A program made the position numbers and the translations under genes. Of a stretch of 30,037 nucleotides of DNA, positions 14,380 to 20,101 are shown piece by piece. The notes under the pieces are model-generated. The model saw only the letters and a program-made list of their open reading frames with translations. It searched no databases and was not told where the DNA came from. Source of the stretch: a virus. Positions within the stretch are counted from its first letter, which is position 1, and the number at the start of each line of letters is the position of its first letter. Where the stretch lies: positions 1-30,037 of IMG/VR virus record IMGVR_UViG_3300017737_002013, one strand, 5' to 3'.

Positions 14380-14450
14380 TTTCGGGGGGGTTGCAGGCTC
14401 GCCACCAATTTTTTTACTGGAAATTGGAAACCAGGCGGGATCAATCCCAT
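14376..14450 (-). CDS. Possible 24-aa leader ORF coupled to the oxygenase
   Basis: ATG at 14450-14448, stop TGA at 14378-14376 overlapping the oxygenase ATG. The peptide starts MGLIPPGFQFPVKKL. It fills the only ~100-nt gap between two oxygenase genes. No strong ribosome-binding site is seen. It could be a real micro-protein, a coupling leader or chance. Confidence 0.3.
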   Translation of the reverse strand: MGLIPPGFQFPVKKLVASLQPPRK

Positions 14451-14476
14451 CCGCACCAGCAGGCTTAACCCTTATC

Positions 14477-14944
14477 CTACGGGGATCTAATTACATAATC
14501 CCAAGGGTTTATGATAATAGACTGTCGTCGTCCATCAACTGTAAACATTTCATCAACAGCATGTCTGATACCAGGACCAAAGATAACTAATCGATTTTGC
14601 AATGGTTTGATGGACGTTCCGTTTTCAAAAAGAAGTTTACCACCAAGAATATTTTCTATCCTTATATAATAAACTAAAGTACATATTGGAAAAGAATTGA
14701 TACCTTCTTGTTTAAAAAGAATCTCATCTTTATCCATATGCCAACCAAGTTCAGGGTTATTTTGACTCCAAACTTCATAACCAATACATTCTGATAAATC
14801 AAAATGTTTTTTTGCTTTATCCAATAAAGGATTTAAACATTCAATATCCTCCTTCGGTTGGAGGTAGTAGTTATGGTAATTAATATTAGCATCAAGAATT
14901 TCTTTTACCTGAAGATCAGTTAAAACATCATCTAGAATAAACAT
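14477..14944 (-). CDS. 2OG-Fe(II) oxygenase
   Basis: 155 aa from ATG 14944, which follows the upstream TAA by 1 nt (TAATATG). An ATG at 14977 would add 11 residues and a 32-nt overlap, and MFILDDVLT is the usual opening for small oxygenases of this kind. Ligands: WHMDKDE at 68-74 (H69-x-D71), H128 in GPGIRHAV, and R139/R140 in GRRQSIIINPW. The length is near the minimum for the fold. It is the first of three oxygenases in a row. Substrate unknown. Confidence 0.82.
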   Translation of the reverse strand: MFILDDVLTDLQVKEILDANINYHNYYLQPKEDIECLNPLLDKAKKHFDLSECIGYEVWSQNNPELGWHMDKDEILFKQEGINSFPICTLVYYIRIENILGGKLLFENGTSIKPLQNRLVIFGPGIRHAVDEMFTVDGRRQSIIINPWDYVIRSP

Positions 14945-17140: not shown

Positions 17141-17146
17141 TTGTTA

Positions 17147-17218
17147 TGGGAGATACTGGGGTCGAACCAGTGACATCTTCGGTGTAAACGAAGCGCTCTA
17201 CCTCTGAGCTAATCTCCC
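17147..17218 (-). tRNA. tRNA-Val (anticodon UAC)
   Basis: 72 nt. Acceptor stem GGGAGAT/ATCTCCC, D-arm GCTC...GAGC, anticodon stem CTTCG/CGAAG with loop TTTACAC (anticodon TAC), T-arm ACTGG-TTCGACC-CCAGT, discriminator A. CCA is not encoded. Its first 10 nt overlap the end of the upstream oxygenase gene, and its T8-A9-G10 is that gene's stop codon. Confidence 0.95.
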
Positions 17219-17862
17219 AAGGAAACCCACATGGTAGGATCAGAAACATGATGTTCTGAATCCCAATCTGTTTTGTCTTTAGATGTTATCATTATATCAT
17301 ATGAAATAGAAAATCGGAAGTCATTTCCAGTAAATTCTGTAACTCTATGCTCTAATGAAGAAGGGAAAATTAGAAGTTGATTTTCGGTAGGTGAATAGAT
17401 ACGATTTTTTTTATCTATTGTAACTGGTAATTTTTTAAGTACATGATCGGGAGGACACATGAATACAATGTCGCCTCCATTATTTTTATCACATTTTAGA
17501 TAATAAACTGCACTAATGTGTGCATTTCTATGGTTATGTTGAGCAACTGCTCCGTCAGTATCACAAACAACAGGCCAAGATTTTTGAATATAAATCTTAT
17601 GTTTCGATACGTCTACACCAATTTCTGTTAAGTATCTAATAACGTGATCATACAGATAATTATTGATCCACTTAAATTCTTCGTGTTCTGAGATTTGATG
17701 GTGGCCTGTTTTATCTCCAGTTATATTTAAACATGTGTCTAAAAAATAACCAAACTCTTGAGTGTATTTATAGAAGAATTTTGTAAGTTTATTTTTTTGT
17801 TCTTCAGTGCCATCAATCCAATCATAATATATGGGAACGCCAAAACAAGATTCAATTGTCAT
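17209..17862 (-). CDS. Putative 2OG-Fe(II) oxygenase (2OG-FeII_Oxy_5-like)
   Basis: A 217-aa protein. SWPVV at 95-99 and QHNHRNAHISAVYYLKC at 108-124 carry candidate ligands H109/H111 and N110. IFPSSLEHRV at 165-174 has H172, and R183 lies in FRFSISYDI. This resembles the 'putative 2OG-Fe(II) oxygenase' family common in marine phages. The last 10 nt lie inside tRNA-Val and the TAG stop is tRNA positions 8-10. Cleavage by RNase P at the tRNA 5' end would remove the stop from the message. The start overlaps the upstream 99-aa gene by 11 nt. Confidence 0.75.
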   Translation of the reverse strand: MTIESCFGVPIYYDWIDGTEEQKNKLTKFFYKYTQEFGYFLDTCLNITGDKTGHHQISEHEEFKWINNYLYDHVIRYLTEIGVDVSKHKIYIQKSWPVVCDTDGAVAQHNHRNAHISAVYYLKCDKNNGGDIVFMCPPDHVLKKLPVTIDKKNRIYSPTENQLLIFPSSLEHRVTEFTGNDFRFSISYDIMITSKDKTDWDSEHHVSDPTMWVSLGD

Positions 17863-18151
17863 CGGGAAGATCTTGTGGATTTTCTAAATCTAATTCATAA
17901 ACCAAAGGCATAGCAAGTTCCTCAGTAAGGTATGAGGAAGATTTATATAATTGTTCATCCGTAATTATTTTATTTTTATTTGCTTCCATGACTACTTCTG
18001 GATCATCCATAGCAACTGATGGTACTTCATCAAATGTGAATGGAACATAATTCAGAAAATACATTTTTACAATCATGGTATGATCTCCAGTTTCATACCA
18101 AACATATGATTGTTGAACTCTCAGTTTATTCATATGTTTTTTTGCACACAT
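17852..18151 (-). CDS. Hypothetical protein (99 aa)
   Basis: A soluble, acidic protein with aromatic-rich beta-like segments (QQSYVWYETGDHTMIVKMYF). Not recognised. An alternative ATG at residue 7 (18133) is possible; neither start has a clear Shine-Dalgarno. It lies 23 nt after tRNA-Gly and overlaps the following oxygenase by 11 nt, so it may be a partner of that enzyme. This is context only. Confidence 0.6.
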   Translation of the reverse strand: MCAKKHMNKLRVQQSYVWYETGDHTMIVKMYFLNYVPFTFDEVPSVAMDDPEVVMEANKNKIITDEQLYKSSSYLTEELAMPLVYELDLENPQDLPDDN

Positions 18152-18174
18152 TGATATTTAACATGTACGGTTTA

Positions 18175-18246
18175 AGCGGGTGATCGGGATCGAACCGATG
18201 GCATCTAACTTGGAAAGATAGCGTTCTACCGCTGAACTACACCCGC
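18175..18246 (-). tRNA. tRNA-Gly (anticodon UCC)
   Basis: 72 nt. Acceptor GCGGGTG/CACCCGC, D-arm GTTC...GAAC, anticodon loop TTTCCAA (anticodon TCC), T-arm ATCGG-TTCGATC-CCGAT, discriminator T, no CCA. The anticodon stem CTATC/GTTAG has one U-U mismatch. Its first 10 nt overlap the upstream oxygenase gene, whose TAG stop is tRNA positions 8-10. Confidence 0.93.
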
Positions 18247-18815
18247 ATTGGTCCCGTAAATGCAATGTTACCAGCGATCATAAATCTATTATCTACTGGG
18301 CAGGGATCCACCTGATGAGACATATGACCTGCAAATACAACTAACCTACCTTCAGTAACCTGAATTTCGTTGCCTTCTAATACTAAAGGGGAACTTCCTT
18401 CTGGGCAATTAATATAGTATGCAAAGGACATTGCATAAGGGTAATGGTTATGATAAGTTGCATATGAACCTTCATTATACCACATTCCCCAATAGTCTGC
18501 AACTTTAAAGTTTTTAAATTGTGGAGGGCTATCGTGATAAGCAGTACCAGTTCCTTGAGCAATGAGATCAGCACAGTTTACACTTTCCGAATCTATCCAA
18601 TCAATTAAAATTGATAATTCTTTACAACCAACTGGAGTAATTGTAGATACAAATGGGGTTCTACGTGCTTCACCATTAACAATAATTTCGACAGAATACT
18701 CTTTAATCCATTCCATAAGTCCTGGATTAATTTCTTCCCAATTTGGACACTCTAAAATTACAGGTTCAAACAACCTGTACTTTGAACTTGTAGTTGAATA
18801 GTTTCTATACTTCAT
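18237..18815 (-). CDS. Putative 2OG-Fe(II) oxygenase wedged between two tRNAs
   Basis: A 192-aa protein. YHNHYPYAMSFAYYI at 121-135 (H122/H124), VFAGHMSHQV at 160-169 (H164/H167) and R177 in NRFMIAGNIAF follow the same plan as the oxygenase at 17209-17862. Like that gene, it belongs to the phage 'putative 2OG-Fe(II) oxygenase' group; substrate unknown. The ATG is 1 nt after tRNA-Leu, and the frame upstream is closed by a stop within the tRNA, so this is the only start. No ribosome-binding site exists outside the tRNA. The stop lies within tRNA-Gly. Processing of both tRNAs would leave an almost leaderless mRNA lacking its stop. Confidence 0.78.
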   Translation of the reverse strand: MKYRNYSTTSSKYRLFEPVILECPNWEEINPGLMEWIKEYSVEIIVNGEARRTPFVSTITPVGCKELSILIDWIDSESVNCADLIAQGTGTAYHDSPPQFKNFKVADYWGMWYNEGSYATYHNHYPYAMSFAYYINCPEGSSPLVLEGNEIQVTEGRLVVFAGHMSHQVDPCPVDNRFMIAGNIAFTGPMRV

Positions 18816-18816
18816 A

Positions 18817-18898
18817 TGTCGATGAAAGGACTTGAACCTTCAAGAGTTGCCTCACTAGAACCTAAACCTAGCGCGTATACCAATTCCGCCACATCGAC
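18817..18898 (-). tRNA. tRNA-Leu (anticodon UAG)
   Basis: 82 nt. Acceptor GTCGATG/CATCGAC, anticodon stem-loop CTAGG-TTTAGGT-TCTAG (anticodon TAG), long variable arm (TGAGGCAACTC region) as expected for Leu, T-arm AAGGTTCAAGTCCTT, discriminator A, no CCA. Confidence 0.93.
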
Positions 18899-18901
18899 GA
18901 A

Positions 18902-18975
18902 CGACTCAGGTTGGACTCGAACCAACGACCGACTGCTTAGAAGGCAGTTGCTCTATCCATCTGAGCTACTGAGTC
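18902..18975 (-). tRNA. tRNA-Arg (anticodon UCU)
   Basis: 74 nt. Acceptor GACTCAG/CTGAGTC, D-arm GCTC...GAGC, anticodon stem-loop ACTGC-CTTCTAA-GCAGT (anticodon TCT), T-arm GTTGG-TTCGAGT-CCAAC, discriminator G. Only 3 nt separate it from tRNA-Leu. It is the first tRNA behind the promoter at 19048-19076. Confidence 0.95.
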
Positions 18976-19047: not shown

Positions 19048-19076
19048 AATATAACGGATAAACTGATTGATGTCAA
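19048..19076 (-). promoter_or_regulatory. Host-type promoter of the tRNA operon
   Basis: TTGACA at 19076-19071, 17-nt spacer, TATATT at 19053-19048. The -35 box contains the TGA stop (19075-19073) of the 120-aa gene upstream. Confidence 0.8.
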
Positions 19077-19525: not shown

Positions 19526-19533
19526 TATTTATT
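19526..19533 (-). promoter_or_regulatory. Late-type promoter element (AATAAATA)
   Basis: Matches NATAAATA on the minus strand. It overlaps the TAA stop of the lysozyme-like gene and lies about 90 nt before the 120-aa gene. Confidence 0.5.
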
Positions 19534-20101
19534 CCAACTTCAACATCTTTGAGTACTCATATGCATAAACCTCTCGGTTACCTTTGATTCCCCAACCCAA
19601 CCAGTAGTAAGCAGGTTTCATATAATAAGATACAGTCTGTCCACCGCCTTCAAATTGTGGAAGGACACGTTGAAAGATAGGTTCGTTAATCATATAACGT
19701 ATCTGACCATCCAATGAGGACGGATTACAATCATACTTAGCACAGAAGTTTCCAAGACCCTTGTAACGACCAATAGAAGTCCATTGGATCAAACCATATC
19801 CACCACTCTTACACTCGGTGTAGGAGACGCGAGCACCACCCTCGCAAATGTTAGGGATGAACTTACTCTCCTGCTTGATGTTACCCATGATCGTAGAAAG
19901 AGCATTGCGATCAGTGATCTTTGTTTTTTCTTGAATCAAGAGGAGAACATACTGTTCCTCTGGAGTACAGTCTTCACATTTCCACTGTAGTTCTTCAACT
20001 TCTTCATATTGAAGTTGAGGTGGTCTTACAGGAGATGCATCAATCTGAACTGGGGTAAGAACCGAGCACAGGAGAAGTGAGGCAATAGTAGAAATTTTCA
20101 T
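19529..20101 (-). CDS. Exported tail-lysozyme-like protein
   Basis: A 190-aa protein with an N-terminal signal-peptide-like segment (MKISTIASLLLCSVLTPV, likely cleavage near residues 20-25). The domain from ~47 to 185 follows: IMGNIKQESKF at 71-81 with the likely catalytic E78, then GGYGLIQW at 100-107, NFCAKYDC and YYWLGWG. This pattern matches the phage tail lysozyme family that cleaves peptidoglycan. Seven cysteines (six outside the signal segment: 42, 45, 86, 97, 120, 125) suggest disulphides in an oxidising compartment. No lipobox is present around C12. It could act as an endolysin exported by the host Sec system or as a virion enzyme. Confidence 0.75.
   Translation of the reverse strand: MKISTIASLLLCSVLTPVQIDASPVRPPQLQYEEVEELQWKCEDCTPEEQYVLLLIQEKTKITDRNALSTIMGNIKQESKFIPNICEGGARVSYTECKSGGYGLIQWTSIGRYKGLGNFCAKYDCNPSSLDGQIRYMINEPIFQRVLPQFEGGGQTVSYYMKPAYYWLGWGIKGNREVYAYEYSKMLKLE

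Follow-up and report, generated by a model that had tools for sequence, protein, structure and literature searches.

Protein genes bordered by tRNA genes in described systems

In mitochondria, protein genes adjoin tRNA genes and cleavage at the tRNA ends sets the ends of the mRNAs, as at the human MT-ND1/TRNI junction (tRNA punctuation). For MT-ND1 and MT-ND2, an in-frame stop is created by flanking tRNA sequence, and a bacterial in vitro system supported termination on MT-ND1 with a flanking tRNA fragment (PMC9674279). The phage locus described here resembles this arrangement but differs in two respects. In mitochondria the stop is created by cleavage and polyadenylation, whereas here tRNA positions 8 to 10 already form an entire TAG, which cleavage would remove; moreover, the arrangement concerns no more than a few of the phage genes.

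The E. coli secG-leuU operon offers a second parallel, a protein gene with its own stop codon being followed there by a tRNA gene. Both lie on one transcript that is separated by tRNA processing, and a statement in PMC3985628, referring to Mohanty and Kushner 2008, describes an mRNA-tRNA operon cut by RNase P. In the phage, in contrast, the stop lies in the tRNA, and co-transcription is suggested only by the layout and a single promoter-like site.

Deposited CDS features of the cyanophages Sf-FS3, S-SCSM1, S-RIM32 and S-SSM7 likewise enter the next tRNA, by about 9 to 21 nt, although they belong to other gene families than those studied here, except in Sf-FS3, where both oxygenase overlaps are present; we found no paper discussing these overlaps in the open-access literature searched. 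The literature on tRNA punctuation that we found deals mainly with organelles. A description of stop codons at U8-A9-G10 of tRNAs in phages or bacteria was not found in the open-access literature, subscription papers lying mostly outside the search. The tRNA-dependent lysogeny of phages (PMC10865867) is a different phenomenon, in which host tRNAs contain the attachment sites.

Two tRNAs provide the stop codons of two oxygenase genes

The closest isolates of the window (the whole stretch of 30,037 bases analyzed) are Synechococcus phages, foremost Sf-FS3, and we therefore regard it as a cyanophage fragment, from a virus infecting marine cyanobacteria. Its minus strand carries, in this order, tRNA-Arg, tRNA-Leu, oxygenase-2, tRNA-Gly, a 99-aa ORF, oxygenase-1 and tRNA-Val (Table 1). 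All four tRNAs scored 53 to 70 bits, compared to a gathering score of 29 for Rfam RF00005. Short overlaps between genes are frequent across the whole window.

Two further features were observed on the same strand. An ORF near the tRNA block (19529-20101) matches phage tail lysozyme (PF18013, 1.4e-12), and a wcaG RNA (RF01761) was detected at 14391-14488 with 77.7 bits (gathering score 42). This RNA has been mentioned for T4-like cyanophages (PMC9964418).

Table 1. Features of the tRNA/oxygenase block and its surroundings, in coordinates of the window.
Feature	Position	Strand	Description
Oxygenase-1	17209..17862	-	217 aa, 2OG-Fe(II) oxygenase; terminal three codons and stop inside tRNA-Val
tRNA-Val(UAC)	17147..17218	-	Rfam RF00005, 68.8 bits, and ARAGORN; positions 8-10 are the oxygenase-1 stop
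TAG stop of oxygenase-1	17209..17211	-	U8-A9-G10 of tRNA-Val; 8 relatives keep it, in one case as TAA (A10)
Oxygenase-2	18237..18815	-	192 aa, 2OG-Fe(II) oxygenase; starts 1 nt past tRNA-Leu, ends within tRNA-Gly
tRNA-Gly(UCC)	18175..18246	-	Rfam RF00005, 66.4 bits; positions 8-10 are the oxygenase-2 stop
TAG stop of oxygenase-2	18237..18239	-	U8-A9-G10 of tRNA-Gly; other relatives use U20-A21-G22
tRNA-Leu(UAG)	18817..18898	-	3' end separated by 1 nt from the start codon of oxygenase-2
tRNA-Arg(UCU)	18902..18975	-	first tRNA of the block
99-aa ORF	17852..18151	-	phrog_4134 (function unknown); between tRNA-Gly and oxygenase-1; 11-nt overlap with oxygenase-1
Promoter-like TTGACA-17-TATATT	19048..19076	-	upstream of the tRNA/oxygenase block; 11/12 matches; also in locus L011
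Exchanged block (end of 99-aa ORF, oxygenase-1, tRNA-Val)	17146..17950	-	from comparison with L011/L012

Oxygenase-1 terminates with TTG GGA GAT TAG and oxygenase-2 with ATG CGG GTG TAG. With G1 placed by Rfam at 17218 for tRNA-Val and at 18246 for tRNA-Gly, both stops coincide with tRNA positions 8 to 10 and each overlap is exactly 10 nt. ARAGORN sets the start of tRNA-Val at 17219, one base too early; the Rfam coordinates were used. Sequence and Rfam placement thus confirmed the initial annotation, in which both reading frames ran 10 nt into tRNA-Val and tRNA-Gly and ended on U8-A9-G10: neither enzyme gene has a stop of its own, and the next tRNA gene provides the TAG.

Oxygenase-2 is adjoined by tRNAs on both sides, as it also starts 1 nt past the 3' end of tRNA-Leu (18817), which had been missed at first. 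A gap of 1 to 2 nt between tRNA-Leu and oxygenase-2 is found in the window, in Sf-FS3 and in loci L017, L018, L141, L149 and L155. With a start this close behind tRNA-Leu, any upstream initiation signal would lie within that tRNA. The window and, similarly, related loci thus show one feature of tRNA punctuation, namely protein genes flanked directly by tRNAs with almost no spacer.

Oxygenase-1 lost its own stop, and the oxygenase-2 stop varies in position

Eight oxygenase-1 homologues that overlap a tRNA share the C-terminus W-(V/T)-x-L-GD*, whereas non-overlapping homologues end in W-x-x-(L/I/V) or one or two residues off (NPSNWVEL*, DPTHWKVL*, SPHHWVQV*). The non-overlapping proteins stop about two residues sooner; the tRNA therefore took over from a stop that was lost, and the protein gained no more than Gly-Asp. 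The overlap persists over dS values of about 0.8 to 1.6 without reversion. In L149 and L009, which represent one contig, A10 replaces G10 in tRNA-Val and changes the stop to TAA; the partner of A10 was already U25 in that clade, leaving the base pair intact and the stop kept. Related genes that end well before the tRNA, named beforehand as a finding that would speak against the arrangement, were encountered in part: the oxygenase-1 homologue of S-SCSM1 ends 33 nt before tRNA-Gly.

The stop at U8-A9-G10 is used by oxygenase-2 of the window and its nearest relatives. Oxygenase-2 of Sf-FS3 and L014-L019 is in a different reading frame and stops at U20-A21-G22, which gives an overlap of 21 nt. Judged from these sequences, the stop of oxygenase-2 is looser in position than that of oxygenase-1 and drifts between U8-A9-G10 and U20-A21-G22.

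An oxygenase-2 homologue of S-SSM7 (L005, 2380-2700) has no tRNA behind it and ends with AAGGGTGTAACAGACTGGTAA, in which 14 of 21 positions are identical to the 5' end of a tRNA-Gly. This level was reached by 3 of about 2,460 distinct ORF ends (ends lying in tRNAs left out). It is no more than suggestive of an earlier tRNA overlap, of which the S-SSM7 end may be a leftover.

Stops at U8-A9-G10 recur ahead of various tRNAs

Other phage genomes, to which the initial annotation had pointed for comparison, contain the arrangement repeatedly. The survey covered 255 phage loci and the window, a non-random sample collected mostly via tRNA-Val and tRNA-Gly patterns, with 906 distinct tRNA contexts found by ARAGORN. 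Among upstream ORFs of at least 100 aa that end between -150 and +75 of a tRNA (n = 269), 28 stop exactly at U8-A9-G10 and 16 further inside the tRNA. Compared to these 28, the background of ORF stops is about 1.1 per nt at -60 to -21 and 4.3 per nt at -20 to -2. The excess arises because TAG occupies positions 8 to 10 in 649 of the 906 tRNAs, so that any ORF reading into such a tRNA in this frame is forced to terminate at that point.

When ORFs of at least 80 aa are considered, those with U8-A9-G10 stops fall into 14 single-linkage families, which make up 22 family-tRNA pairs; nine tRNA types lie behind them (Val, Gly, Asn, Arg, Asp, Pro, Ile, Thr and Gln), and several families use this stop ahead of different tRNAs. 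The stop lies at U8-A9-G10 in 22 of 41 overlapping family-tRNA pairs, compared to 25% under a frame-neutral run-in model (P about 1e-4, with no correction for related sequences or non-genic ORFs). A likely reason for its over-representation is that no shorter overlap guarantees a stop, although a functional preference for the short overlap, instead of minimal extension of the protein, might also be involved.

Bacterial loci collected via a tRNA-Val pattern showed a U8-A9-G10 stop in 3 of 65 cases (ORFs of at least 100 aa, not confirmed as genes), which speaks against an explanation confined to phages. In addition, ORFs of 164 to 414 aa in the bacterial loci L291, L323 and L329 were observed to end with TGA 6 nt inside tRNA-Val or tRNA-Lys.

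Probable compaction onto a stop built into tRNAs

The overlap is real, conserved and recurrent, and its simplest explanation is compaction, with the gene ending on a stop present in nearly all tRNAs. We assign a probability of about 0.7 to the overlaps being such a passive by-product of genome compaction onto the built-in TAG, with no dedicated switch. Spacer and own stop would have been lost, so that each oxygenase gene became joined to the tRNA that follows, and the near-invariant U8-A9-G10, or U20-A21-G22 in another frame, would have served as a ready-made stop that the tRNA structure prevents from drifting. Two observations weigh against a purely passive reading: U8-A9-G10 exceeds its expected share among overlaps, and the oxygenase-1 overlap has not reverted despite large synonymous divergence.

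In bacterial tRNAs, RNase P releases the 5' end at G1. Genes and tRNAs of the block most likely share one precursor RNA, as hinted by their common strand, the lack of spacers and one promoter-like site upstream. Promoter-like sites were not enriched over shuffled sequences (19 versus 17.2), and the T4-type late promoter TATAAATA, considered as a candidate, occurred no more often than in shuffled sequences (47 sites against an expected 52.8). Ribosomes would complete the oxygenase on the uncut precursor, moving through the 5' part of the tRNA in its unfolded state. A cut before G1 would then free the tRNA and strip the oxygenase message of its last codons and stop, as had been proposed and as the geometry supports. 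Since the cut strips the stop, the oxygenase would have to be translated from uncut precursor, and cut messages, being non-stop, would probably be subject to ribosome rescue. The initial annotation had called mRNA and tRNA mutually exclusive products. This is correct in that the cut would remove the stop but too strong in that a precursor could be translated several times before a later cut. Competition between translation and tRNA maturation would thereby be a passive, tolerated consequence.

It had also been suggested that the arrangement is under selection for tRNA-controlled protein output. In such a selected switch, tRNA maturation would shut off oxygenase synthesis, the RNase P cut producing a non-stop message that leads to tmRNA rescue and a product tagged for decay; oxygenase output is then predicted to drop while tRNA output rises. 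The overlap is kept in eight oxygenase-1 relatives, U8-A9-G10 is above its expected share among overlaps, and full processing would cut oxygenase-2 off from its stop as well as from its upstream region. However, the stop of the oxygenase-2 family drifts between two positions, homologues without any overlap exist, and the same arrangement is shared by numerous genes and tRNAs that are unrelated (14 or more ORF families, ahead of 9 tRNA types) and extends to bacteria. Geometry and conservation aside, the present evidence gives no support to selection for tRNA-controlled output: given stop drift, the involvement of unrelated genes and the fact that compaction onto a built-in TAG predicts overlap, regulation is conceivable but unsupported. 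We consider a selected switch unlikely, and equally doubt the broader notion that U8-A9-G10 is a recurrent, selectively retained stop of phages, and in part of bacteria, at which tRNA maturation acts as a timer ending production of the upstream protein.

If the use of tRNA stops is general, an invariable part of the structure of almost all tRNAs also serves as a stop codon, phage genes can safely shed their own stop and spacer, and a gene stays intact when the tRNA that follows it is exchanged. Protein output would be tied to RNase P cleavage, providing a simple site for studying how ribosomes and RNase P compete for the same RNA. CDS ends within tRNAs should not be trimmed as errors during annotation, even if compaction is entirely passive.

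Oxygenase-1 and tRNA-Val were exchanged as one block

The window and its close relatives L011/L012 are about 85 to 100% identical over several kilobases, but only about 65 to 78% identical within a block at about 17950-17146, with about 87 to 90% over tRNA-Val. Seven substitutions fall in tRNA-Val, compared to one in the roughly 95 bases past its 3' end. The right edge of the block is the 3' end of tRNA-Val, and the left edge is gradual and lies inside the 99-aa ORF. Between L221 and the window, oxygenase-2 is identical at synonymous sites, whereas oxygenase-1 has a dS of 0.85. From the divergent block and this contrast we conclude that oxygenase-1 and tRNA-Val were replaced together. The gene-plus-tRNA cassette of the initial annotation thus stands as a unit swapped in one block, though its duplication finds no support.

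The overlap might persist because phage recombination transfers the gene jointly with its tRNA, the breakpoints falling at the edges of tRNAs. Oxygenase-1 and tRNA-Val are about 70% identical to L011/L012 between flanks of about 85 to 100%, and identity resumes at the tRNA 3' end. Families with U8-A9-G10 before different tRNAs would be expected if exchange occurred within the conserved 5' part of tRNAs, and cyanophage tRNA genes are located with non-syntenic genome regions (Sullivan et al. 2010, PMC3037559). Against this, a single clear exchange event was observed, with a gradual left edge in the 99-aa gene, and exchange is possible without an overlap, which may be incidental. We regard linkage as an improbable reason for the overlap and prefer compaction.

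The oxygenase ORFs as genes

Oxygenase-1 matches PF13759 (Pfam, 8e-19) and phrog_81 (1.6e-31). Oxygenase-2 matches phrog_81 (1.5e-21) and PF13759 (5.7e-6), the latter with 27.1 bits and thus barely at the Pfam cut-off of 27. Reading the translations by eye, we found HNH, a later H and an R in both, which are candidates for the metal-binding histidines and the distal Arg of this enzyme family. Compared with relatives, dN/dS is about 0.2 to 0.3 (for example, dS 0.85 and dN 0.27 for oxygenase-1 versus L009), pointing to purifying selection. By their homologues, Pfam and PHROG matches and low dN/dS, both ORFs are judged to be real genes. It is very unlikely that they are non-coding frames running into the tRNAs by chance or artefacts of annotation: although some short ORFs of the survey are probably spurious and every frame that enters a tRNA in matching phase has to stop at the TAG, both ORFs match 2OG-oxygenase families, their homologues have the same ends, and dN/dS is well below 1.

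The origin of both arrangements from a duplicated gene-plus-tRNA cassette is more improbable still: the two genes share membership in phrog_81 and have overlaps of the same length, 10 nt, but the aligned oxygenases are only 24% identical over 90 aa, each is closer to genes of other phages than to its counterpart, tRNA-Val and tRNA-Gly are different isoacceptors, and the equal overlap length is accounted for by U8-A9-G10.
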